64,000 nt of DNA, taken from contig NZ_JBAJNO010000008.1 in the NCBI RefSeq assembly GCF_036880985.1, positions 496,001 to 560,000 of the forward strand, written 5' to 3'. The position numbers were made by a program, and so were the translations under genes. Shown here piece by piece: positions 1-51,900 of this stretch; the first letter of the stretch is position 1; each line of letters starts with the position of its first letter. The notes below the pieces were generated by a model. That model was not told the origin of the DNA and did no database searches. It was given only the letters and a program-made list of their open reading frames with translations. Origin of the DNA: Limibacter armeniacum. Its GTDB lineage: Bacteria > Bacteroidota > Bacteroidia > Cytophagales > Flammeovirgaceae.

Positions 1-2
1 TC

Positions 3-578
3 ATACAAGCAGAACTTGATACGCTTCGCAATCAAGTCCAGCCTCACTTCTTTTTCAATACACTGAACACCTTGCGAGATATCATCGATCACAGTCCCAA
101 AGAAGAAGCCAAGAAGTTTGTAGACAAACTATCGGATATCTACCGCTTCTTGCTGGAATCAGGTAACACTAATTTGATTTCATTAAAGTCTGAGCTGAAG
201 TTTGTGAAAGCCTATATTCACGTTCAATCGGAACGATTTGGAGAGAACCTAAAATTGAATTGGAACATCCCAGTAGCACTGGAAGATAAGCTCATCGCAC
301 CGATGAGCCTGCAATTACTCTTAGAAAATGCCATTAAACATAATGTGGTTTCCAAGGCTAAAACACTGGTGATTAACATTGACGTTGCGGATGATTTTGT
401 TGTGGTAACGAACAAGATTCAAAAAAAATCCACACAGCTGCCTTCTACAAAAATGGGATTAAAGAATATTGAAAAGCGATACGCACTTATCTCAGACCGA
501 GCTGTGGAAATAGCGAATGATGGAAATGAATTTTCCGTGGCTCTCCCCCTACTGAGGGAAGACATGCTTAAAAAATGA
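3..578 (+). CDS. LytS-type sensor histidine kinase, C-terminal part (5' end outside window)
   Basis: The reading frame is open from base 3, so the gene begins upstream of the window. The first residues contain the H-box of the LytS/YehU class (QPHFFFNTLN), whose histidine is the phosphorylation site. An N-box-like LLLENAIKHN follows about 80 residues later, and a short ATP-binding domain ends with GLKNIEKRY. These kinases are normally membrane-anchored and phosphorylate a LytTR response regulator. The stop overlaps the next gene's start by four bases (575-578), the usual coupling of such a pair. The sensor input part cannot be seen. Confidence 0.9.
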   Translation: MQAELDTLRNQVQPHFFFNTLNTLRDIIDHSPKEEAKKFVDKLSDIYRFLLESGNTNLISLKSELKFVKAYIHVQSERFGENLKLNWNIPVALEDKLIAPMSLQLLLENAIKHNVVSKAKTLVINIDVADDFVVVTNKIQKKSTQLPSTKMGLKNIEKRYALISDRAVEIANDGNEFSVALPLLREDMLKK

Positions 579-1018
579 CTATGAAAACCTTAATCATCGA
601 AGACGAAATTCGGGCGGTTAACCAATTGCAATTACTATTGAAAGACTGTGACTTTACGTTCGAATTGCTGGAAATTATCGATACGGTTGAAGATGCCGTG
701 GTATGGTTTCAGCAAAACGAAACCCCCGATCTAGTATTTATGGACATCCAACTAGCTGATGGCTTAAGCTTTGAAATTTTTCAAAAAACAACGGTAGTGG
801 CACCCATTATATTTACGACAGCCTTTGACCAATACGCCATTCAAGCTTTTAAGGTAAACAGTGTCGACTATTTGCTAAAGCCAATACAAAAGGATGATCT
901 GAACACTGCACTTGACAAATTCATCCAATCCAACAGGTCTTTCCCATTAGATCAGGTTACCTTGCCCATTTCTCATTTCACAAAGCTCTTCTATCTCACT
1001 CCAATTATTTTGATATGA
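575..1018 (+). pseudogene. Response regulator of the LytR/AlgR type, truncated after the receiver domain
   Basis: The receiver domain is intact: acidic residues E9, D10 and E11, phospho-acceptor D57 in FMDIQ, T81 or T82, and K102 in LLKPI. Normally a linker and a LytTR DNA-binding domain of about 100 residues follow. Here the homology stops near residue 125 (about base 950) and the frame runs through unrelated sequence to a stop at 1018. The lost part coincides with the 3' end of an equally truncated reverse-strand gene, so a rearrangement or insertion cut the gene. Without LytTR it cannot bind DNA in the usual way. It is probably a remnant, though a receiver-only protein is possible. Confidence 0.8.
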
Positions 1019-1141
1019 GTAGTACCTAAATTCCCACTCAGGGCAGATAATTGCTTCTAAAGCAGAAATGGATTTACAAACCTGTTGTAACTCAATTGGA
1101 TTTGGGAGCAGGCTTAAATTTTTAGTCGAAAGAATACTCAT
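947..1141 (-). pseudogene. N-terminal fragment of a conserved hypothetical protein
   Basis: This is a 64-residue reverse-strand frame. Its C-terminal half (PEWEFRYYSYQ, then EMRNGQG) resembles a family I remember from many bacteria that carries RYYSF...W...E.MASMRNG, in which more than 100 further residues follow. Here the frame ends just after MRNG. The end falls exactly where the forward-strand response regulator loses its homology, so both genes are broken at one junction near 950-960. The family function is unknown to me, and family membership is from memory only. Confidence 0.5.
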
Positions 1142-1224
1142 TGTTTTGTAATTGGTAATGATAGCTCTGCATCCATAGTATGGATCTTCATTTTGGCATA
1201 TAGCACTTATTCGTAGCTATTTTT

Positions 1225-1839
1225 TTAATTCGTTTTATAAATTAGCTTTTCTATGAAGCCCTTATTTCTGAAAGCTTTCCAGATAAAGACAGTACTAATT
1301 CCAGAAATAAGTGTTCCAAAAAACAAAACTCCCTCTGATCCTAGTATTTCAGCTAGACCCAATGATAATCCTCCCAAAACCCCTATTCTTCCACGAATCT
1401 CATAAGTATAACCCAACTCCATATTTTTTGCATAGTCGTAAGAAAAAATAACAACCCCTAAAGTAATCAAAAGCATAATCAAAGGATTTTTAGCTCTTGT
1501 AAAAAAACTTTCCTCTTCCAATACATATTTCGGTTGTAGACTTAAGCCATCCTTAAGGTATGAGAAAATTTCTTTCTTATGTTCCCCAGCATGGATTAAT
1601 AGCTCACTGTCTTTGCCATAATTCAGTTGAATCTTAGGTGACCCCACCTTAGAAGAAATACTTCTTATGTAGCTAAGAGGAGTCCCTGTCAATTTTTTAG
1701 GGATCTTTCCTTGGCGAAGTTCTTCCTCGAAGAGATAAAGTTGATTTAAGCCAGGATTGAAGTTATAAATAACATCATCAGACACTACAATAAGCTTGTC
1801 ATTACCGCTCTTTGATACCCAATATTTCATCTTATACAA
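1225..1839 (-). CDS. Hypothetical membrane protein in a possible lone cassette
   Basis: 204 residues. About 120 hydrophilic residues are followed by two hydrophobic segments (roughly residues 118-135 and 165-190), so the N-terminal part is probably a cytoplasmic domain anchored by two helices. I do not recognise the family. About 80 bases upstream on the same strand is an attC-like site (1920-2009) related to those of the cassette array at 28751-36036. The arrangement attC, short spacer, ORF matches the cassettes there. No matching GTTAGAG complement was found beyond its stop codon, so a complete cassette cannot be shown. Confidence 0.65.
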   Translation of the reverse strand: MYKMKYWVSKSGNDKLIVVSDDVIYNFNPGLNQLYLFEEELRQGKIPKKLTGTPLSYIRSISSKVGSPKIQLNYGKDSELLIHAGEHKKEIFSYLKDGLSLQPKYVLEEESFFTRAKNPLIMLLITLGVVIFSYDYAKNMELGYTYEIRGRIGVLGGLSLGLAEILGSEGVLFFGTLISGISTVFIWKAFRNKGFIEKLIYKTN

Positions 1840-1919
1840 AATTGTTTTTTGAAACTCTTACAGCATATTTTTAGTGTAAGGTCTTATTTTTATTATTTCA
1901 ATCTCAAAAAGTCTTTGGT

Positions 1920-2009
1920 CTCTAACATCAAGCTATCGTTTGTTCAAGCTTGATGCTGCTCAATATAGTACTAATCCAAGATTAATAAACAGAGACTAGG
2001 TGTTATAAA
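1920..2009 (-). other. Isolated attC-like site, reverse orientation
   Basis: Read on the minus strand it starts with TTTATAAC, ends with GTTAGAG and carries the same central block (TTGGATTAGTACTATATTGAG, then ATCAAGCTTGAACAAACGATAGCTTG) as the attC sites near 30300, 31800, 34830 and 35990. The arms fold with CTTGGAT against ATCAAG, leaving an extra base, and GTTT against AAAC. It is more diverged than the array copies. A stretch of about 370 bases between genes (1840-2211) holds this site and nothing else I can identify. Confidence 0.65.
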
Positions 2010-2211
2010 CTATTTTATGGTTTTAACTTGGGTTGTTTATAATAAGAACCTCATAAGCCCAAATATAGGCTTTAGCATACTACCTTATAAAAAGAACCTA
2101 ACTCATCCTTTACTTAAAAATATGCAACATTTTATGGTTGAATAGATGTTAAGTAAAGAGATATCCCTCCTAAGAAAAGTAACCAGTAAATAACACTTAA
2201 ACTATTCTGTA

Positions 2212-3282
2212 ATGGCACAAGAAACCACCCCAAAAGTCATTCGAGCATATGCAGCTCAAGAACAAGGTGCAACTCCTGCACCGTGGCAGTACGAACCTCG
2301 TCAACCCCGTCCGGATGATGTGTCCATTGAAATTCTCTATTGTGGCGTATGTCATTCGGATATCCATTTTGTGGATAATGATTGGAATATGACCGTTTAT
2401 CCTGTTGTCCCTGGACACGAGATTGTAGGTCGGGTAAAAGCAGTTGGCTCTGAAGTATCCAAATACAAGGTAGGAGATATGGTAGGAGTTGGTTGTTTGG
2501 TGGACTCATGCCGTCAATGTTCAAGTTGTAATGAAGGCTTGGAGCAGTATTGTGCCCAAGGTGTTTGGACTTATAATGGAGTAGACCGGTTTGATGGTAA
2601 GATGACATATGGTGGTTACTCTGAACATATTATTGTGAGTGAGCGCTTTGTGGTACACCTTCCTGATGGGCTAGACCCTGCAGCAGCAGCACCAATATTG
2701 TGTGCTGGTATTACTACTTATTCTCCCCTTAAATATGTTGGTGTAAAACCTGGAGATAAAGTTGGAGTAGTTGGTATGGGAGGTCTTGGACATATGGGAA
2801 TCAAGTTTGCTAAGGCAATGGGGGCAGAGGTCACACTTTTTACCCGTTCTGAAAGTAAGATTGAGGAAGGAAGAAGAAATGGGGCAGATCACTTTGTGAT
2901 TAGTACTGTAGAAGACCAAATGAATCAAGCAGCCGGATCACTAGATTATATTCTCGATACAGTGCCTGTGGAGCATGACCTAAATCCTTATGTCGCTTGC
3001 TTGAAAGTGAATGGGACTTATATTCTGGTTGGACAGCTGACACCTCTGAACCCGCCTATTGAAGCCATACAATTGGTGTTGGGTAGGCGGTCGATTCTTG
3101 GTTCGGCTATTGGCGGTATGCCTGAAACACAGGAAGTTCTTGATTTCTGTGCTGAACACGGTATTAGTTGTGATGTCGAGATGTTGGATATTCACAAGAT
3201 TGGTGAGGCATACGAACGGATGAAGCGGGGAGATGTTCGTTACCGTTTTGTAATTGATATGGAATCACTCAAAAATTCTTGA
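2212..3282 (+). CDS. Zinc-dependent alcohol dehydrogenase (cinnamyl-alcohol dehydrogenase class)
   Basis: A 356-residue medium-chain dehydrogenase that interconverts alcohols and aldehydes or ketones with NAD(P)H in the cytoplasm. The catalytic zinc ligands are C47 (GVCHSD), H69 (PGHE) and C164. The structural zinc is held by C100, C103, C106 and C114. The nucleotide-binding loop is GMGGLGHMG (188-196). Length and motifs match the YahK/AdhA branch. It stands alone, with the reverse-strand peroxidase gene converging from the right and a shared hairpin between them. The substrate cannot be told from sequence. Confidence 0.93.
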   Translation: MAQETTPKVIRAYAAQEQGATPAPWQYEPRQPRPDDVSIEILYCGVCHSDIHFVDNDWNMTVYPVVPGHEIVGRVKAVGSEVSKYKVGDMVGVGCLVDSCRQCSSCNEGLEQYCAQGVWTYNGVDRFDGKMTYGGYSEHIIVSERFVVHLPDGLDPAAAAPILCAGITTYSPLKYVGVKPGDKVGVVGMGGLGHMGIKFAKAMGAEVTLFTRSESKIEEGRRNGADHFVISTVEDQMNQAAGSLDYILDTVPVEHDLNPYVACLKVNGTYILVGQLTPLNPPIEAIQLVLGRRSILGSAIGGMPETQEVLDFCAEHGISCDVEMLDIHKIGEAYERMKRGDVRYRFVIDMESLKNS

Positions 3283-11097: not shown

Positions 11098-12351
11098 CTA
11101 CTTGAATAGGGTTGATATTTTATGATATGCTAATGGAAGAATCCGAAAAATGATATTTGAAATAATGAAATAGACTGTACTTTGGTTAAACTCATAAATA
11201 CTGAAGATGGCAATGACAATTGTAATAATTACATAGCTAATTGACCAGTATTTGGCACTGTGTGATGAGTTTAAAACTTGGTAAATTAAAGTGATAAAAG
11301 GAATAATGTGTAGAGAAATTAGATATGAGGTGATTGATGCATAAGCATTTATATAAAAACTAAATGACAAAATCAGCAGTACCATGATTAACAATGTGCT
11401 GATTGTCTGTGTAGTATTGAATAAGTATCTCGATCTTCGATTAGAAATGTATAACCAGAAGTCATATATACCCATTGGAATTATCATAATGAGGGGATGA
11501 ATTAGGTTTATATTCCAAAATATTAAGTAAATAGATAACCATGGAATGGCATTTTTAAAGCCTAATTCACTACTGTATAAGTTTGCGATACAAAAGAGAA
11601 TAAAGGTAGAGTAAATTATGCCAATAAGATGAGCTTCATTACTTCCTTTTTGACCTAAGTTACGAGCAACTTTTTGAATTGTATTATAACCTGGCAGTTT
11701 GTTGCGCAGGGATACCTTGTAAGCATTTTGAAAAAAAGGATTATTAGGTTGCTTAAATAATGCTGATGATAACATTTCAGTAGAGGACTCATCTCCATGT
11801 GTAAGAGAAATAAGTCCGTCAGTGAAAAGGTTTTGTGCATTAATAGGGTTATCTCCTAATAAAAAATCCGATATATGTTTTGCTTCATCTTGTTGACCTA
11901 AGAAAGAGAGTACTAATGCTTTTGCCCTAAGGCATTTTGCATTGGTTGGGTCTATACTTAGACCATTATTTGCTAATTCCAATGCTTTATCAAAATTGCG
12001 TTTTATAACATATAGGGAACTAAGGTCTCCAAATATATTGGCATCATTGGGATTGAATGCTATAGCTCTGTTTAAGTGATCTATTGCTTTATCAGCATTT
12101 TGAAGTTGCATTTGAATTTTTGCAGCTAACTGGTAGTGTGCACATTCTATAGGGTTAAGGCTTATAGCCGTAGCAATAGCTTTGACAGATTCATTCAATT
12201 GACCTAATTGGCAATAATAGATAGCTAAAAATGCATGAAGACCATCATCATTAGGAGAGGTAGCTAGTAAGTCTTGAATATATTTTATCCCTTGTTTGTA
12301 TTTTTTGTTTTGAACATAAAACCTAGCACTTGTTACCTCTTCGATAGTCAT
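11098..12351 (-). CDS. TPR-repeat protein with a C-terminal membrane domain
   Basis: 417 residues. Residues about 1-200 form tetratricopeptide repeats (for example the segments around LNPIECAHYQLAAKIQ and FNPNDANIFGDLSSLY). The remainder holds about six to seven hydrophobic helices (from ILFCIANLY onward). TPR arrays bind proteins, so this may be a membrane-bound scaffold. It lies on the same strand as the exosortase operon, 82 bases after its last gene, and could belong to that unit. No catalytic motif is seen and the role is unknown. Confidence 0.75.
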   Translation of the reverse strand: MTIEEVTSARFYVQNKKYKQGIKYIQDLLATSPNDDGLHAFLAIYYCQLGQLNESVKAIATAISLNPIECAHYQLAAKIQMQLQNADKAIDHLNRAIAFNPNDANIFGDLSSLYVIKRNFDKALELANNGLSIDPTNAKCLRAKALVLSFLGQQDEAKHISDFLLGDNPINAQNLFTDGLISLTHGDESSTEMLSSALFKQPNNPFFQNAYKVSLRNKLPGYNTIQKVARNLGQKGSNEAHLIGIIYSTFILFCIANLYSSELGFKNAIPWLSIYLIFWNINLIHPLIMIIPMGIYDFWLYISNRRSRYLFNTTQTISTLLIMVLLILSFSFYINAYASITSYLISLHIIPFITLIYQVLNSSHSAKYWSISYVIITIVIAIFSIYEFNQSTVYFIISNIIFRILPLAYHKISTLFK

Positions 12352-12433
12352 TTTAAAATAGTTGAATAAAAAAATATTAACCTTATTACCTATAGATGTT
12401 TATTATATTTATAAGTGGAGTGAAATACTAATT

Positions 12434-13255
12434 TTACCCTAAAATAAAATCACTATCAATTATTTTAAGTGTTATGTGCTTGCCTGTAGGGTAATTCTCA
12501 AAACCGGAGATATGACCTGTAAGGACGTTATACCTTTCAATCAGTTGCTCCAACCCAGTCTCGAATTGATGGATATCCACTTTCTGTTTTTGTGTTAACT
12601 CTCTTCCTTGTCGTCCATTCGTAAAGAACAACATTAAGTTATACTGATCTCCACACCTTTTTTCAAGATAATGGACAACATTGATATTGGCTTCATCGGT
12701 GATAGTCAAAAGGTCTTTAAGGAAACCTTCTTTGTTGGCTGAAAATAAGTTACAGTCAAATCGGATAGAAGAGGTTTCTGCATTCCATTTCTTAGGTGAA
12801 GAAGAGACTATGCTCAGGTAAGGCTTGCTTATACCTAAAGCTTGATTATCTGCTGGATTTGAAAGTTTAATCAATTCAGCATCTGTTGCTCGTTTTTCTG
12901 TGCTTATCAGTTGTGTCCCATGATTTTTTAAAATATCCTCTACCTTGATAAGTAACTCGAATTCAAAATCATTTATCATATATCCCCCAGTCCCAATCCT
13001 TAGATGGTTACCTGATTTGTAAACAAAAATGTAAGCACCCTTATGGGTACTCACAAGCTTTTCAATATCAGATAACAGTAGGTGAGTATTCTCAACTGAT
13101 ATATCAGTCATTAACTCTGCTGGGGCATCTGCAAAACCACCCAGTCCTTTTCTGAATTTGAAAAAGTCATAGGAATATAATCCTTCCGGAAAACCATAAT
13201 ACCAATAAACACCTAATACCATACTGACTATATATTTTGATAATTCACTACTCAT
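12434..13255 (-). CDS. Unknown protein, third gene of the exosortase operon
   Basis: 273 residues with no signal peptide, no clear membrane helix and no motif I recognise. It overlaps the end of the MSEP-CTERM gene by eight bases, which argues for translational coupling. It may therefore be a dedicated partner of the exosortase pair. Conserved-looking features are a YWYYGFPEGLYSYDFFKF segment near the N terminus and a RIGTGGYMI block near residue 87. It may be a cytoplasmic accessory or immunity-like factor, but that is inference only. Confidence 0.7.
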   Translation of the reverse strand: MSSELSKYIVSMVLGVYWYYGFPEGLYSYDFFKFRKGLGGFADAPAELMTDISVENTHLLLSDIEKLVSTHKGAYIFVYKSGNHLRIGTGGYMINDFEFELLIKVEDILKNHGTQLISTEKRATDAELIKLSNPADNQALGISKPYLSIVSSSPKKWNAETSSIRFDCNLFSANKEGFLKDLLTITDEANINVVHYLEKRCGDQYNLMLFFTNGRQGRELTQKQKVDIHQFETGLEQLIERYNVLTGHISGFENYPTGKHITLKIIDSDFILG

Positions 13256-27703: not shown

Positions 27704-28471
27704 TCACGCAGCCCAACCTGGACCACTGCGGCACTTTACCTCCACAGCAGCAGTATCAACCGCTATTGGCTTAGGCTGCTGTATTTCCCTATACAGCAAG
27801 ATGCCCTCGTCTTGTGCTTGCGCTTTAGGTATAGCTATCTTGACCTCAATAGCACACTCCTGCGGTTTTTTCTTATACAGCCACCACCAGTATTTGGGCA
27901 TTCTGATATAAGGGCGCTCACGATAGGGCTTCTGCCTGATAGACTTGCCCGTTCCTGTAGGAAAAGAAAAGTAATTGTGCCGCCCAAACCGGTAACGCTC
28001 AGAATTCTCACAGTACATACCCCACCAGTCACGTTTGCGATGCAAATTGAGCCAAGCTTTCCTTACCTTATGGTTGTAGTCATAGCGGCTACGGTAGCTA
28101 CGCATGTCATGCCACCACCAAACACGTTTGCGGGGCTTTCGTACCTCCAACCGATCCCTCCAAGTCCACTCAGCAACGCCTACAAACCGTAAACTCAAAT
28201 GGTAGGAACGCTTATAAGTACTGATACCACCCTTGGGCATAGGCTGTGGCTGTCTGTTCCTGTAAGACTTTATACCTGCTTCCATCCTGCGCAGATGGGC
28301 TTTGCGGTTCGCTTGAAAAGCAAGATAGCGACCATCTGCCTCACTATTGCGCGCCACCTCACGACTTACCGTAGAACGGTGAACACCAAGCGCACGGGCA
28401 ATGGCTGCCAATGACTTGCCAGCTTCCAGCATAAGACTGATCTGTCTGCGGTGTTCGTTGTGGAGACGCAT
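27704..28471 (-). CDS. IS30-type HTH domain fused to an aromatic- and arginine-rich tail
   Basis: 255 residues. The first 60 are a clear HTH_38-like domain of IS30 transposases (MLEAGKSLAAIARALGVHRSTVSREVARN). The rest lacks the DDE catalytic core expected of a 300-400-residue IS30 transposase. Instead it is rich in Trp, Tyr and Arg (RKRVWWWHDMRSYRSRYDY, RDWWGMYCEN, PKYWWWLYKKK). It may be a nucleic-acid-binding protein derived from a transposase. I know no family for the tail. It sits between hairpin repeats and the cassette array. GC content is higher than in its surroundings. Confidence 0.65.
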   Translation of the reverse strand: MRLHNEHRRQISLMLEAGKSLAAIARALGVHRSTVSREVARNSEADGRYLAFQANRKAHLRRMEAGIKSYRNRQPQPMPKGGISTYKRSYHLSLRFVGVAEWTWRDRLEVRKPRKRVWWWHDMRSYRSRYDYNHKVRKAWLNLHRKRDWWGMYCENSERYRFGRHNYFSFPTGTGKSIRQKPYRERPYIRMPKYWWWLYKKKPQECAIEVKIAIPKAQAQDEGILLYREIQQPKPIAVDTAAVEVKCRSGPGWAA

Positions 28472-28584: not shown

Positions 28585-28750
28585 AAGCAGCTTTGATTAT
28601 CTTATCAAATGGATAAAAGAAAGGATAGCCTTTAGAGATATAAAAGAACGCATCGTGTTACCGGTCTATAACCTTCTATATAAAGGTAATATGTCTGCAA
28701 AGAAGTTTTGTACAATATTGATATATGCTGTAGCTTAATGGAGTTTTTGA

Positions 28751-28834
28751 CACAGTGTGTATATCAACCATGGTGCTTTTACCCCCTGATTTTACGGAAT
28801 ATATACCACTGTGCACTATATACAATTGTTATCA
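28751..28834 (+). other. Probable attC-like site or left boundary of the array
   Basis: Arms CACAGTGTGTATAT (28751-28764) and ATATACCACTGTG (28801-28813) pair over 13 bases with one bulged base. The core GTTATCATC follows at 28828. A matching RYYYAAC-type left core is not clear, so the site may be decayed or may mark the array edge. No gene lies in 28472-28856. Confidence 0.5.
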
Positions 28835-28856
28835 TCAACTTGACTTATAAAACTGA

Positions 28857-29702
28857 ATGGATTGGAGTAGGTTAGAAAATGATATAAAAGTCGCAATAGC
28901 TTCAAAACAGAAAATAAGCTTTTTAGTAGGTGCTGGCCTAAGTGCGGAAAGTGGTATTCCAACCTTTCGAGGAAAAGATGGCTTTTGGAAAGTCGGATCA
29001 AAAAACTATCAACCCGAAGAGATTGGAACTTACAGAATGTTCTGTTTGAACTCCGAGGAAGTTTGGAAGTGGTTTTTATTTAGAAAGACTATTTGCAAGA
29101 ATGCTCAACCTAATGAAGGGCATTTGGCTCTAGTAGAAATCGAGGATTTATTGAATGATCAATTTGCTCTAATAACTCAGAATGTCGATGGATTACACAA
29201 GAAAGCTGGCAACTCTTTAGAAAGAACTTATTATGTACATGGTGATTTGGATTTTGTAAGATGTGGTGATGAGTGCACTTCAAATTTATACCCTTTTCCC
29301 CAAGGTATTTCCGACAAGAAAAGAGGAGATCGAATAACAGAACAAGAACAGAAATTACTGAAATGTCCAAATTGTGGTGAAGACCTCAGACCACATGTGC
29401 TATGGTTTGATGAAACGTACAACGAAAAATATTATAAGTTTCAAACAGTACGTGACATAGCTGACAACACGGCATTACTATTCATTATTGGAACTTCCGG
29501 TGCAACTTATCTTCCAACTGAGTTTGTGGATAGGGTTAGTTTCTTCAACGGTGGAATAGTTGATATTAATCTTGATGACAACAACTTCACTGAGTTTATC
29601 AAATCCTACGATAAAGGATACTTAGTAAGGGACTCTAGCAGTCAAGTGTTACCGAAAATTGTGGAGCTGATGAAAAAGATGATAACACTAGGTAAAAAGT
29701 AA
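28857..29702 (+). CDS. Sirtuin: Sir2 family NAD-dependent protein deacylase (cassette gene)
   Basis: 281 residues with all class signatures: NAD loop GAGLSAESGIPTFRG, TQNVDGLH, catalytic histidine in YVHGDL, two zinc cysteine pairs (VRCGDEC and LKCPNC) and RPHVLWFDE. It removes acyl groups from lysines with NAD in the cytoplasm. It is the first gene of the array, 20 bases after the cassette start. The left core of its attC (29678-29686) lies inside the coding end, so its last residues (MITLGKK region) are encoded by recombination-site DNA. It resembles CobB-type enzymes more than SIR2 domains of phage-defence proteins. Confidence 0.92.
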   Translation: MDWSRLENDIKVAIASKQKISFLVGAGLSAESGIPTFRGKDGFWKVGSKNYQPEEIGTYRMFCLNSEEVWKWFLFRKTICKNAQPNEGHLALVEIEDLLNDQFALITQNVDGLHKKAGNSLERTYYVHGDLDFVRCGDECTSNLYPFPQGISDKKRGDRITEQEQKLLKCPNCGEDLRPHVLWFDETYNEKYYKFQTVRDIADNTALLFIIGTSGATYLPTEFVDRVSFFNGGIVDINLDDNNFTEFIKSYDKGYLVRDSSSQVLPKIVELMKKMITLGKK

Positions 29703-29767
29703 TAGCTGCGCAAAGCCTTGCGAGCAAAAGGCCAAGCTACTACTTTTACCAATGTACGTTATAAGCC
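29678..29767 (+). other. attC site of the sirtuin cassette
   Basis: The left core GATGATAAC complements the cassette start at 28828. The arms GGTAAAAAGTAATAGCT (29691-29707) and AGCTACTACTTTTACC (29735-29750) pair with one extra base and one mismatch, and the right core GTTATAAGCC is at 29758. The unpaired bases fit the extrahelical-base rule of attC folding. Confidence 0.82.
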
Positions 29768-30357
29768 ATTCGGAAAGTCCTGCGTTTTGGTGGAGAGGTG
29801 GCAAGCAAGGAGATAAGTAATGGCAGCCGCAAGGTGGTTTTTAAAGAAAAAAATAAAGCTTAGCTTTTCTGCGCCAGACCCGAAGGGTTTGGTTTTTTAC
29901 TTTCAGCCTGAGGCTTAGAGAAAACCTGTTTTCGGAAAGCGGAAGGTAGCAGGTGAAAAAAAGCTGATAACCTGTCAGCGTATGCAGAAAAGCTAACGTA
30001 ATTAAAGGACAAAAACCACCTTACGCCGATAAATGAACAGCATCTCCTTAGCAAAGGTGTAGCCCCAAAACAGGTTTCGTGCCGGCTTGTCCATTGGAGA
30101 AACGGCCGATAGTTTAGCCACAGCCTCAAACTCCATCCGTTTCATTTTTTAATAACTCCCTACTAGCGTAAAGAAAAAGCCGGATCGAACAAAGTAGCAG
30201 GAGCAGGAATTCCCGACGGTATCTGTTTTACTTTCACACACTGTGCCTCACCAAAGAAGCGCTGTAAAACAGCTTATAACATGCGCCATCGGTTTATTAA
30301 ATCTTGGATTAGTACTATCTTGAGAAAGATCAAGCTTGAACAAACGATAGCTTGTTG
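29758..30357 (+). mobile_element. Recurring ~600-bp cassette without a credible gene, copy A
   Basis: It starts GTTATAAGCC and ends in an attC with left core AGCTTATAAC (30271-30280). It is almost identical to 31259-31856. A reverse ORF (29860-30129) is not kept in frame in copy B. A 32-codon forward ORF from the ATG near 29820 is also broken in copy B. Purine and T runs plus several small inverted repeats are seen. It may be an ORF-less, promoter or RNA cassette. Confidence 0.75.
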
Positions 30358-30364
30358 TTGGCGA
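30271..30364 (+). other. attC site of repeat cassette A
   Basis: Left core AGCTTATAAC and right core GTTGGCGA. Inner arms: GTTTATTAAATCTTGGAT against ATCAAGCTTGAACAAAC, with a bulged G, around a loop containing TAGTACTAT. The same block recurs at 31770, 34782 and 35943, and on the other strand at 1920. Confidence 0.8.
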
Positions 30365-30375
30365 CAATACTGAAA

Positions 30376-31095
30376 ATGACCATAGTATACAATACAATTA
30401 TTACTTTAATATCCTGGCTAATTATTTATCTGATTGAAAAACGGAATATTTTTAAAGCATGGATAGAACCGACAAAAAAGCGATTTAAAGAATTCATTAA
30501 AGGGTTTTCCTTAATGGCTATTTTATGTGTGATTACGCAATTAATTCTCTCCATGTCAAGTAATATAACATGGAAATTGTCAAACGATTTAAACATTAAA
30601 AAACTATTATCTTCTATCTATTATGATATAAACTCAGTGCTGTTCGAAGAGTTTCTATTCCGAGGTGTACTGCTATATTTGCTAATTAAATACTTGAATA
30701 GTAGAAGTGGTGTTTTAATATCATCTATTGCTTTTGGTATTTATCACTGGTATGCGAACGGAGTTTTAGGCAACCTTCCTGCAATGACCCTAGTTTTTTT
30801 GGTAACAGGATTTATGGGTTATGTTTTCGCTACTTCGTATGACAAGACAAAATCGTTAATCTTGCCAATAGGATTGCACTTAGGCTGGAACTTGACTAAT
30901 CACAACATCTTTTCAAACGGACCAAATGGAATAATGATCCTTCAGGTTAATGGACAGCTCGAAGTTTCAAATTCACATCAACTGATTTCATTTGGTCTAT
31001 ACATGATCACAATTACAGGAGCATTGCTTTTTGTAAAATCAAAATACATTACAAAACAAGAAAGAACTATCGCCAACAATGTATATAGCAAATAG
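30376..31095 (+). CDS. CPBP family intramembrane metalloprotease (cassette gene)
   Basis: 239 residues from the ATG at 30376 (a TTG start at 30352 would lie within the attC). There are about six to eight membrane helices. Motifs of the ABI/CPBP family: EEFLFRGVL (two glutamates and arginine), FGIYHWYAN and HLGWNLTNH. The family includes Rce1-like proteases and bacteriocin-immunity proteins. It follows repeat cassette A. Its attC starts inside the gene: R'' TCGCCAAC at 31070 and the stop codon in the left arm, so the C terminus is encoded by attC. Confidence 0.88.
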   Translation: MTIVYNTIITLISWLIIYLIEKRNIFKAWIEPTKKRFKEFIKGFSLMAILCVITQLILSMSSNITWKLSNDLNIKKLLSSIYYDINSVLFEEFLFRGVLLYLLIKYLNSRSGVLISSIAFGIYHWYANGVLGNLPAMTLVFLVTGFMGYVFATSYDKTKSLILPIGLHLGWNLTNHNIFSNGPNGIMILQVNGQLEVSNSHQLISFGLYMITITGALLFVKSKYITKQERTIANNVYSK

Positions 31096-31268
31096 GGCGT
31101 TCGGTGGTTACCCAAAGTTCAGTGCTATTTACAAACACCGCCAAATCGTTGATTTGGCTTTTAAGAATGAATAAGTTAAAAACAAAATACAACGCTTTGG
31201 CTCGGAGCTAGCTTGAAAGGACTTTGCTTTCTATAGCCCTACATGCCATATACTAATCGTTATAAGCC
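31070..31268 (+). other. Long attC site of the CPBP cassette
   Basis: Left core TCGCCAAC complements the cassette start GTTGGCGA. The outer arms GTATATAGCAAATAGGGC (31081-31098) and GCCCTACATGCCATATAC (31236-31253) pair with few mismatches. An inner hairpin (CGCCAAATCGTTGATTTGGC) is in the middle. The right core GTTATAAGCC is at 31259. About 200 bases, long for attC but within the known range for the family. Confidence 0.78.
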
Positions 31269-31856
31269 ATTCGGAAAGTCCTGCGTTTTGGTGGAGAGGT
31301 AGCAAGCAAGGAGATAAGTAATGGCAGCCACAAGGAGGTTTTTGAGTAAAAAATAAAGCTTAGCTTTTCTGCGCCAGACCCGAAGGGTTTGGTTTTTTAC
31401 TTTCCGCCTGAAGCCTTGAGAAAACGTGTTTTCAGAAAGTGGAAGGTAGCAGGTGAAAAAAGCTGATAACCTGTCAGCGTATGCAGAAAAGCTAACGTAA
31501 TTAAAGGACAAAAACCACCTTACTCCGATAAATGAACAGCATCTCCTTTGGCAGAAGAGTAGCCCCAAAACTGGTTTCGTACCGGCTTGTACATTGGAGA
31601 AACGGCCGATAGTTTAGCCACAGCCTCAAACTCCATCCGTTTCATTTTTTAATACTCCCTTCTAGCGTAAAGAAAAAGCCGGATCGAACAAAGTAGCAGG
31701 AGCAGGAATTCCCGACGGTACCTGTTTTACTTTCACACACTGTGTCTCGCCAAAGAAGCGCCGTAAAACGGCTTATAACATGCGCTATCAGTTTATTAAA
31801 TCTTGGATTAGTACTATATTGAGAAGGATCAAGCTTGAACTAACAATAGCTTGGTG
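31259..31856 (+). mobile_element. Recurring ~600-bp cassette without a credible gene, copy B
   Basis: Nearly identical to copy A at 29758, with scattered substitutions and single-base indels that break the ORFs of copy A. Start GTTATAAGCC and left attC core GGCTTATAAC (31770-31779) are perfect 10-bp reverse complements. It lies between the CPBP and 31889 gene cassettes. Confidence 0.78.
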
Positions 31857-31863
31857 TTGGCAA
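31770..31863 (+). other. attC site of repeat cassette B
   Basis: Left core GGCTTATAAC, right core GTTGGCAA. Arms GCTATC against the later ATAGC, GTTT against AAC, and CTTGGAT against ATCAAG with an unpaired G. It shares the central block of the other repeat-cassette sites. Confidence 0.8.
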
Positions 31864-31888
31864 CAATAAGGAAAGAGAGACTTTTACC

Positions 31889-32521
31889 ATGAGGAATATT
31901 TTAATTAGTGTACTTTTATTAACAACTATTCAGGTTTTTTCTCAGAATCTAACTACAGAAGATTATAGAATACTTGAGACTGTTATATGTAATGAATCAA
32001 GTAAAAAGATAAAAGTTGAGTCAATGTGCTTTTATTCTATTAGTAAGTTTGATTTTTATCAAGACAGCTCTTTTCTGGATAAGGAAAAACTAGAAGGAAA
32101 AATTAGAATAGGACATACTCCATTGATTGAAAAGTATGATAAGATACCTTATGTAACCATTTTGAATCATATAGATTTAGATACTTCTCAGATTAATAAG
32201 TATCTTGACATAAAAGTAGATGGAGTTTTTTGGGATGCACGGAAAATCAAATGTAAGAGATTAGTAATTAAGAATTCTCTACGATTTGAAAAATTAGGAT
32301 ATAAAGTGGTTCGACCTTTTAGAAATACATTTTCCTCAATAAAATTTAGAACAGTCGGCAGACCGATTTATTTGGATAAAAACAATGTACTGATTAATAC
32401 AGCATATTTTAATGTAAAAAAAGGAAAAGGAGCTAAAGAGTATGAAGTTGATTTGTACTATCTTCAAAAGGTTGATAACAACTGGATTATAAAAGAAAGA
32501 TTTAATTTTAATATACACTAG
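31889..32521 (+). CDS. Unknown secreted protein (cassette gene)
   Basis: 210 residues with a signal peptide (NILISVLLLTTIQVFSQ). The mature protein is basic and beta-rich. The C-terminal part, YYLQKVDNNWIIKERFNF, resembles the end of small secreted Bacteroidota proteins. I do not recognise a family. It starts 33 bases after its cassette core GTTGGCAA, and its attC follows 16 bases after the stop. It is AT-rich compared with chromosomal neighbours, as cassette genes often are. Confidence 0.75.
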   Translation: MRNILISVLLLTTIQVFSQNLTTEDYRILETVICNESSKKIKVESMCFYSISKFDFYQDSSFLDKEKLEGKIRIGHTPLIEKYDKIPYVTILNHIDLDTSQINKYLDIKVDGVFWDARKIKCKRLVIKNSLRFEKLGYKVVRPFRNTFSSIKFRTVGRPIYLDKNNVLINTAYFNVKKGKGAKEYEVDLYYLQKVDNNWIIKERFNFNIH

Positions 32522-32536
32522 AAATATGAAATACTG

Positions 32537-32669
32537 TTGCCAACAAAGTGTCATAAGTAATAGCGGCAAAGTGCTGTATTTCAGCATTTGTGGTACGCAT
32601 CAACATCATCAAAATTTGATGCATTCCACTACGCAAGTCGCTACTACTCATACACAAGGCCGTTGTGCG
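32537..32669 (+). other. attC site of the 31889 cassette
   Basis: Left core TTGCCAAC complements the start GTTGGCAA at 31856. The outer arms GTGTCATAAGTAATAGCG (32548-32565) and CGCTACTACTCATACAC (32639-32655) pair with one bulge. An inner stem GTGG..CGCATCAA against TTGATGC..CCAC follows. The right core is GTTGTGCG at 32662. Confidence 0.85.
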
Positions 32670-33143
32670 TCAGCTAAAAAAAACGACACCTGAGAATTAA
32701 AAATGGGATTTGGATTTAATTTATTCTTCATTTTCATTCTTGTCCCATTGACAGGAATTCTATTGATAGCTTGGCTTCTATCGAGGAAACTTTGGATTGG
32801 AAAAATACTTGGATTTATTTGGCTCGGAATTTTTGGACTTGCACTACTGTCAGGTATTGTTCGGTGGTTAACTTCAAAGACAGAATTGGACAAGGACGAT
32901 TACTATGGAGAATATGTTATTAATCGAGGCTATTTCAAAGGCAAACAGACTGATTGGCAATACAACCATTTTCGTTTTGAAATAACTAACAAGGACTCAA
33001 TTTTCTTCTATGTGACTGACAAAGAGAAAATATTGAAAACTTATCGTGGGACAATTAAAACAACAACACCATACAGTTCAGCTAGATTAATAATTGAAAT
33101 GGAACAACCGATACACCACATTTTGACAAGTATTCCGACAACT

Positions 33144-34422
33144 CACTCTACGGTACACTTTTTTATAACCAACTAAAAACCAGTTTTTCAGATGGTGTTT
33201 TGGGACTAATTCCCCTCCAAAACTTCTTCCAAAGTCCTTTGATCTCATTACCTACTTGGCGGGATCTCGTACAGAAATGTTCCTGCAACAGATCTTTTCC
33301 CTTTCTGAAATAGCTGTTCTCCCTGTAACCGTGGTTCTTTACTTTTATGTTTTGTACTTTTTCATGGAAAGCCACGCCAAATAAGTGACAAACAGCAAAG
33401 GCCATACACACCACAGCAAAAAGTCTTTCAAGCCGATCCAATTTGGTCAGGTGAGTGGCTTCCAGGTTGAATCCCCGCCCTTTGAGCGACTGGAAGAACA
33501 CCTCGATGCTCCACCGTTTTCTATAGCTTGACAGCAAGCCTCTTTTCATCAGGTTTGAGACTACGATCAGGTAGTCCTTTCGCCCGTTTTTATCCTTGGT
33601 CATCTGCATGGAAAGAGTCAGGTCCATTCCATAGATCGTCGCTCTTCGGTCAGTACAGCGAAAGCCTTCTTTGCTCCATACCTCTCCTGTTTTCTCCACA
33701 CCATCGATGCTGATTTTGTGGTGTGATGGAATCCGAACGCAGAAGACAATCCCTTGCATGGTCATAAACCGAAGCCACTTTTTGCCGATAAACTCCCGGT
33801 CTGCAATCACTTTCCCGATCCGCTCGGGAGGTACAATCTGAAGCACTTCCTTCAGCAAATCAATACGCTCCTGCTGGTGGCTGTTTCCTTTTTTGTCCAG
33901 TAGCCGAAAAGCCAGTGGGAAACCCACGCCATGACTGTAGGCTGTCACGGCCAGAATATTCACTGCCTGCTTTCTGGACTGCCAGTTGGTTCGGTCAATG
34001 CAGAGGGTGATCTTTCCGGATGGCAGGCAGGAAAACAACCATGCCATCAGGGCCTGATAATTGAACACAGCTCCTGACATAAAGCGTTTGACTTGCTTGG
34101 TCCGAGAAGCTTTTTGCGCCTTGGATGGCAAGTTTTTGGCTATCTGATGAAATTGCACATTTTCATCTTCCACCAAGGCCGTAATTAGCTTGGCTAGTAC
34201 CTGTTTGCTTGGTTTGCCTTTGACGATTTGGAAACCGCAGAGGATTTCAAGTATATTTGCAGTCAACATAAAGGTAAAGGTCTGGCTTGTGGTTTTGGCG
34301 AACGGCAAAGTTAGACCTTTGCTTTTTCTTGCCCCAATCAGCCCTTAAATAACCTGCAAATATCCTGTAATCCAGCATTACACCCTTAATTCACTTTGTT
34401 ATTAAAACTGTACCGTAGAGTG
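33144..34422 (-). mobile_element. IS4-family insertion sequence
   Basis: 1279 bp, bounded by perfect 13-bp terminal inverted repeats (CACTCTACGGTAC at 33144-33156, complement at 34410-34422). It is flanked by a 9-bp target duplication CCGACAACT (33135-33143 and 34423-34431). One intact transposase fills it on the minus strand. It disrupts a cassette gene and is probably the youngest event in the array. Confidence 0.92.
33163..34308 (-). CDS. IS4-family DDE transposase
   Basis: 381 residues. The catalytic motifs are D in TLCIDRTNWQ, D in VIADREFIGKKW and the Y-R-E-K region YRKRWSIEVFFQSLKGRGF, which marks the IS4 family. It cuts and pastes the element at 33144-34422. The frame is intact, so the element may still be active. 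Its stop lies only 19 bases from the left end of the element. Confidence 0.93.
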   Translation of the reverse strand: MPFAKTTSQTFTFMLTANILEILCGFQIVKGKPSKQVLAKLITALVEDENVQFHQIAKNLPSKAQKASRTKQVKRFMSGAVFNYQALMAWLFSCLPSGKITLCIDRTNWQSRKQAVNILAVTAYSHGVGFPLAFRLLDKKGNSHQQERIDLLKEVLQIVPPERIGKVIADREFIGKKWLRFMTMQGIVFCVRIPSHHKISIDGVEKTGEVWSKEGFRCTDRRATIYGMDLTLSMQMTKDKNGRKDYLIVVSNLMKRGLLSSYRKRWSIEVFFQSLKGRGFNLEATHLTKLDRLERLFAVVCMAFAVCHLFGVAFHEKVQNIKVKNHGYRENSYFRKGKDLLQEHFCTRSRQVGNEIKGLWKKFWRGISPKTPSEKLVFSWL

Positions 34423-34540
34423 CCGACAACTTACAGAAATGCTTGGGATTTCTATTTGGTGTTTAAGTCGCCAAAATTTTACAACGTATTTTTCGAAAAA
34501 GGAAAATGGAAGCCAATAGAATGAAAAAGAAAAAGCCGAT

Positions 34541-34614
34541 CGCACAACATGGGCTAAATCAAACACGGTTTGACGATGAACTTGACACTTACTAACTTTC
34601 TAATAACTTTATCT
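34541..34614 (+). other. Left half of a truncated attC site
   Basis: The left core CGCACAAC (34541-34548) is the exact complement of the cassette start GTTGTGCG at 32662, so the interrupted gene lies in a genuine cassette. No right arm or right core follows. At 34615 the sequence switches to the middle of the repeat cassette. A deletion probably joined the two. Confidence 0.72.
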
Positions 34615-51686: not shown

Positions 51687-51819
51687 CTTTACTTTTAGTT
51701 TGTAGTGATTAAAACTTAAAGCGTATGATGAGTGCGAAAAAAGAGATTACGGGAAACGGATGCATACTGTACGCTTACAGTATGGTTGATTTCAGACAAC
51801 TATAAAAACAAAGGCTGTC

Positions 51820-51900
51820 TTTTGCTCCCTTCGCAGGAATTACCCTGTTCAGGTTCTATGGGTATAATCTCAGCTTTTCAGCACCCCAGCATACTATACC
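51820..51900 (-). promoter_or_regulatory. TPP (thi-box) riboswitch
   Basis: Read on the minus strand: GGGGTGCTGAAAAGCTGAGA, then ATACCCATAGAACCTGAACAG, GGTAATTCCTGCGAAGGGA. These are the conserved CTGAGA, ACCC, GAACCTGA and GCG-AGGGA blocks of the thi box. It lies 135-215 bases upstream of the TonB receptor start. In Bacteroidota it represses expression when TPP is bound. Confidence 0.92.

Follow-up and report, generated by a model that had tools for sequence, protein, structure and literature searches.

How did an attC-like element come to lie inverted beside a two-component system whose response regulator lacks its DNA-binding half? The question arises at the left edge of a 64,000-nucleotide stretch of Limibacter armeniacum DNA (the window; bases 496,001–560,000 of contig 8 in a genome of 8.04 Mb in 9 contigs). 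The first-pass annotation had proposed that cassettes or array ends recombined 27 kb away and disrupted the two-component system. On balance, we think it probable that two separate things sit side by side here: a solitary, decayed attC that carries a promoter, and a deletion or other illegitimate join at ~950. An attC with a central promoter would close an ORF-less cassette of ~520 bp that is set before gene cassettes in arrays; solitary copies would have kept the GTT end together with the boxes that resemble a promoter, while their hairpin weakened and the matched cassette was mostly lost; the copy at 1920–2011 would transcribe a gene for a 204-aa protein; and the separate event at ~950 would have left lytS with a receiver-only partner. 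The genomes used for comparison include members of the source's family and order, none of its genus; C8 and C9 denote contigs 8 and 9 of the source genome, and L-numbers separately examined stretches of DNA.

The element at 1920–2011 and the gene behind it

The observation that the attC block of the window's array recurs, diverged and inverted, at 1920–2009 is borne out. The core of ~90 bp (1920–2011, reverse strand) is 82–87% identical to the copies of the array at 30.3–36.0 kb, and a family model built on 18 copies, this one among them, gives it 83.5 bits (E 6.6e-23); a plain DNA search found the family independently. The array copies match the same core, which places both in one family, and they are closer to one another than to the copy at 1920–2011, which argues against its recent export from the 30-kb array.

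What remains of an attC site in this copy? Its right-hand end carries the G|TT of a cassette start (GTTAGAG at 1926–1920), the would-be cassette beginning GTTAGAGACC (1917–1926, reverse strand). At the left-hand ..AAC end, TTATAAC is present, but the only complementary cassette start upstream is an AT-rich 8-nt match ~40 nt away. Between the element and 950, GTTAGAGACC has no partner end even with 2 mismatches allowed (best 7/10), and the matched end GGTCTCTAAC is missing from 950–1917, ahead of the junction; it may have been deleted. Upstream of the element, the ORF-less cassette body is absent. The hairpin forms 12 of 17 arm pairs relative to a reference fold taken from one array copy, and the fold has a z of −1.45 with the canonical stem outside the minimum-energy fold. 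Scored for cassette chains, the region gives 0.

Behind the element on the same strand lies, as the first-pass annotation had it, a gene for a protein with hydrophobic stretches (1225–1839, reverse strand; 204 aa, or 201 aa from the ATG), its start codon ~90 nt downstream of the element. The inverted orientation of the copy follows the gene that it precedes. The protein matched no Pfam or NCBIfam family; among 296 Bacteroidota genomes its own family occurs in four, the source and three others with distant relatives, and one member (L098) sits within a cassette-like pair GTTGGCAGT...ACTGCCAAC. Calling the gene cassette-like is therefore apt as regards this patchy distribution, which is that of cassette genes, but not as regards structure, given the missing cassette end and the chain score. 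In the same vein, the piece 945–2009 does contain this gene but holds two genes rather than one, the second being an antisense fragment next to the junction. To its right, the element borders on an intact zinc alcohol/aldehyde dehydrogenase gene (2212–3282, forward strand; ADH_N E 3.4e-27; best NCBIfam match the Ahr aldehyde reductase, under its cut-off), so that it occupies the divergent intergenic space between the two genes.

As an attC-type site with no integrase nearby, the element resembles a solitary attC or, in IntegronFinder usage, a CALIN, but the latter is a cluster of attC sites, whereas here a single diverged copy stands without a cassette end. Off-target cassette insertion at genomic (attG-type) sites would also leave an attC in the ordinary chromosome; here, however, the attC comes before the gene, a cassette end is missing, and the far side lacks the second half of the host gene.

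Could the locus instead be the remnant of an inverted array, with both the 204-aa and the antisense gene as cassette genes behind a real attC and with the far end taken by the deletion? We regard this as doubtful, yet as the alternative to be taken most seriously. The right-hand GTT boundary, the patchy distribution of both genes, the cassette-like unit around the 204-aa relative in another genome and the array on the opposite strand that stops ~160 bp before lytS would all fit such an origin, which is harder to reconcile with the lack of a recognisable attC between the two genes, of a cassette end and of any chain score, and with relatives of the second gene that have no clear cassette ends. 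Even so, a cassette holding both genes whose end was lost in the deletion would look identical.

Array and solitary copies as putative promoters

The element had been described as a lone attC; it is one of about 45. With the sequence model, the genome yields 45 copies at E ≤ 0.01, and 27 relatives yield none. Eight lie in cassette arrays; most others stand alone, their hairpin weaker and a cassette end mostly missing; besides the copy at 1920–2011 there are about 20 such solitary diverged copies, most of them directly upstream of genes.

The array copies of the core are true cassette boundaries. In seven of the eight, whose GTT opens a cassette, the inverted end of that cassette (9–10 of 10 nt) lies 576–967 bp downstream and is followed by attC-like sequence; in controls, 10/10 was hardly ever reached and 9/10 sometimes. 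Within arrays, the core is the attC that closes the ORF-less cassette of ~520 bp (GTTATAAGCY...RGCTTATAAC). This cassette recurs in near-identical form (window 29758–30352 and 31259–31856; L009 9986–10578; L044 13564–14161), alternating with gene cassettes and always directly preceding the start of a gene. Among the diverged copies, one at C9:3,088,170 may have a cassette (9/10, 1520 bp). Arm pairs number 13–16 of 17 in array copies and 8–15 (median 12) in solitary ones, counts that lean towards the array copies because the reference fold is itself an array copy. The solitary copies are conserved at GTTTATT, CTATATTG, AAGCTTGAA and GATAGCT, with a variable left flank, and most retain the GTT right end and the left TTATAAC.

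Among the best-conserved positions of the whole family are GTTTATT and TATATTG, next AAGCTTGAA and GATAGCT. The first two suggest a promoter. In the copy at 1920–2011, the −7-like box TATATTG (1961–1967) and, upstream of it, the −33-like box GTTTATT (1984–1990, both reverse strand) are spaced one base more closely than in most copies. Bacteroidota promoters carry TTTG near −33 and TAnnTTTG at −7 (PMC7366714), and in a flavobacterium the −7 boxes include both TAnnTTTG and the variant TAnnTTGY (PMC9723704). The likeness to promoters of the Bacteroidota primary sigma factor thus lies in two conserved boxes at about the expected distance ahead of genes; it stops short of an exact consensus match, the −7 box, TATATTG(A/G), being one base shorter than the main consensus (and nearer TAnnTTGY) and the −33 box being weak. 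A generic sigma-70 scan, which says little for Bacteroidota, gave promoter-like sites no more often than in shuffled sequence.

The position of the copies points the same way. Of the 29 copies with flanks, 23 have an ORF start in the interval from −25 to +120 nt, counted from their right end, 15 of the 21 solitary ones among them, compared with 12% of random positions. By eye, sulfatase-like, HAD-phosphatase-like and LysE-like proteins are among those encoded behind solitary copies. Two copies, at L045 7505–7600 and C8:1,040,457, precede large genes (490 and at least 488 aa, the first sulfatase-like) and have nearly identical upstream sequence, which suggests that promoter and gene were duplicated jointly. 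From the sequence, we read the element at 1920–2011 with moderate confidence as a decayed promoter-carrying attC that reads into the 204-aa gene, and the other solitary copies as sites of the same kind, bearing in mind that conservation of the boxes could stem in part from common descent and not from selection.

The solitary copies, we infer, descended from cassettes, not the reverse. The opposite course, in which an ORF-less cassette captured a host promoter family, so that the solitary copies would be ancestral and the array attC derived, seems unlikely to us. It would explain why solitary copies outnumber array copies and are more diverged, why the genes behind them look like ordinary chromosomal ones and why some share cassette sequence further upstream; it leaves unexplained why the attC-type GTT and the left TTATAAC, needless for a plain promoter, were mostly kept, and it sits poorly with the zero copies in relatives.

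The truncated genes at the junction

The window opens within an intact lytS-type histidine kinase gene, whose 3′ part spans 1–578 on the forward strand (355 aa; Pfam His_kinase E 1.9e-24); its start lies 490 bp ahead of the window, and the complete ORF is found in L009 at 11512–12579. The lytR gene that follows (575–955, forward strand) retains the receiver domain (Response_reg E 8.7e-13) and lacks the LytTR domain that, together with a receiver, defines this class of regulator. Intact LytR relatives, with which it is co-linear, measure about 250–300 aa. As all listed relatives, except one at a contig end, have open frames of ~236 aa or more, the receiver-only product is a truncated one, and the loss of the DNA-binding half at ~950, already remarked on in the first-pass annotation, is confirmed. 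From ~947–958 the lytR frame runs antisense to another gene, up to a stop at 1018.

That other gene is likewise the fragment it had been taken for. Only its first ~63 codons remain (947–1141, reverse strand), whereas members of its family run to about 210 aa: homology to relatives in L032–L034 (54%, 45% and 37% identity) reaches codon 62–63, and the relatives continue beyond the cut, so this gene, too, is truncated at the junction. The junction falls within 947–958 (local sequence GATCAGGTTACC), its exact base not being resolvable. A genome-wide LytTR search returned no orphan half; it returned full-length LytTR genes, one insignificant match and one frameshifted gene (C8:818,446–818,737, split over two frames of 68 and 241 aa). 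The remainder of the antisense gene was not detected in the genome either, in a search that used a distant homologue as query and had no positive control. Among 194 genomes of the order there is no close lytSR orthologue, the best LytS reaching 37% identity. A separate candidate, lytSR as a cassette starting GTTAGCAAC, was discarded, as the window's first 30 kb contain no exact end.

In itself, the truncation of lytR is ordinary gene decay. Since no att site is found at ~950, both genes are cut and their missing halves go undetected, a deletion would account for both truncations, and so would an inversion with subsequent loss; a deletion or other illegitimate join, removing the LytTR half together with the 3′ part of the antisense gene, fits best, and between deletion and inversion with loss we would choose the former.

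Did an integrase contribute? That recombination between the array at 27–36 kb, or its cassettes, and lytR made the junction appears very improbable. GTTACC at the junction resembles the G|TT point of integrases, six bases being too few to build on, and real arrays exist on both sides. The array 27 kb away is not the nearest one, however: an array on the plus strand stops at about C8:495,350, ~160 bp before lytS, which makes the array upstream of lytS the nearest. Neither attC nor attI was found at ~950, and the copy at 1920–2011 has diverged from the array copies. Moreover, a cassette insertion would have kept the second half of lytR on its far side and left the second gene uncut, and neither half was found. 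Without an att site at 950, a cassette end or a chain score above 0, no cassette insertion or array-end exchange is visible, and the presence of about 20 similar solitary copies elsewhere means that this one requires no rearrangement 27 kb away. An assembly error that joined two unrelated places at ~950 is the least credible option: repeats are plentiful in the genome, but neither side of the junction is one (901–1000 has no second copy in the examined stretches, and a DNA search finds a single full copy of positions 1–3000 in the genome), and the assembly comprises just 9 contigs.

A possible source of chromosomal promoters

Where would such cassettes come from? The window array is a chain of six cassettes (28,828–34,548), compared with at most two in shuffles. 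Inside one of them, a transposase-like ORF (33163–34308, reverse strand; 381 aa, IS4-type by eye) seems to interrupt a 157-aa ORF starting at 32703. Elsewhere, an integrase of 374 aa (C9:1,638,522–1,639,643) that resembles XerA/XerD has behind it a leader ending ATACAATTGTT and, next, five chained cassettes. It matches the integron-integrase model below cut-off and in two pieces that skip positions 181–239, so the IntI-specific insertion appears to be absent. At C8:1,070k, a broken second copy is accompanied by the same leader and by four cassettes, and the leader also stands, without an integrase, before the window array (about 28,738–28,830). Upstream of the leader in the window lies an HTH_38 (IS30-like) ORF of 255 aa (27704–28471); the array that precedes lytS has such an ORF in front of it as well (L009 6737–7504). 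Further to the right, a TPP riboswitch (51809–51898, reverse strand; 68.1 bits) is the sole Rfam match in the window.

Relatives of the integrase with 57–61% identity occur in Flagellimonas onchidii, Cytophagales bacterium Alg240-R148 and three further genomes, beside chains of 4–8 cassettes. The source genome and other Bacteroidota, a group in which few integrons were reported by IntegronFinder 2.0 (PMC9024848), carry integron-like platforms whose Xer-type integrase appears to lack the IntI insertion; its gene shares a strand with a leader and 4–8 chained cassettes (platform loci: L046 8523–13610, from C9:1,638,522 onward; L041 14222–18584; L112, L113, L114, L121 and L122).

Gene-less cassettes of Vibrio are known to act as promoters, one of them with start sites inside attC (PMC11014356). 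The cassettes described here resemble such ORF-less promoter cassettes of Vibrionaceae (PMC11014356) and of an oral metagenome (PMC6557892) in being placed before other cassettes and in the promoter proposed on the sense strand; they differ in their Bacteroidota host, in that the putative promoter boxes are among their most conserved parts, and in the many solitary copies outside arrays in Limibacter armeniacum. We tentatively suggest that a Xer-type integron-like system of Bacteroidota may have spread an attC with a built-in promoter in the form of an ORF-less cassette, and that this attC may have seeded dozens of solitary copies across one genome, which became promoters of ordinary genes and lost their recombination features. 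If true, integrons would be a mobile source of promoters for the whole chromosome: attC sites that leave arrays and come to precede ordinary genes genome-wide would show integrons to reshape chromosomal expression, beyond gene content.
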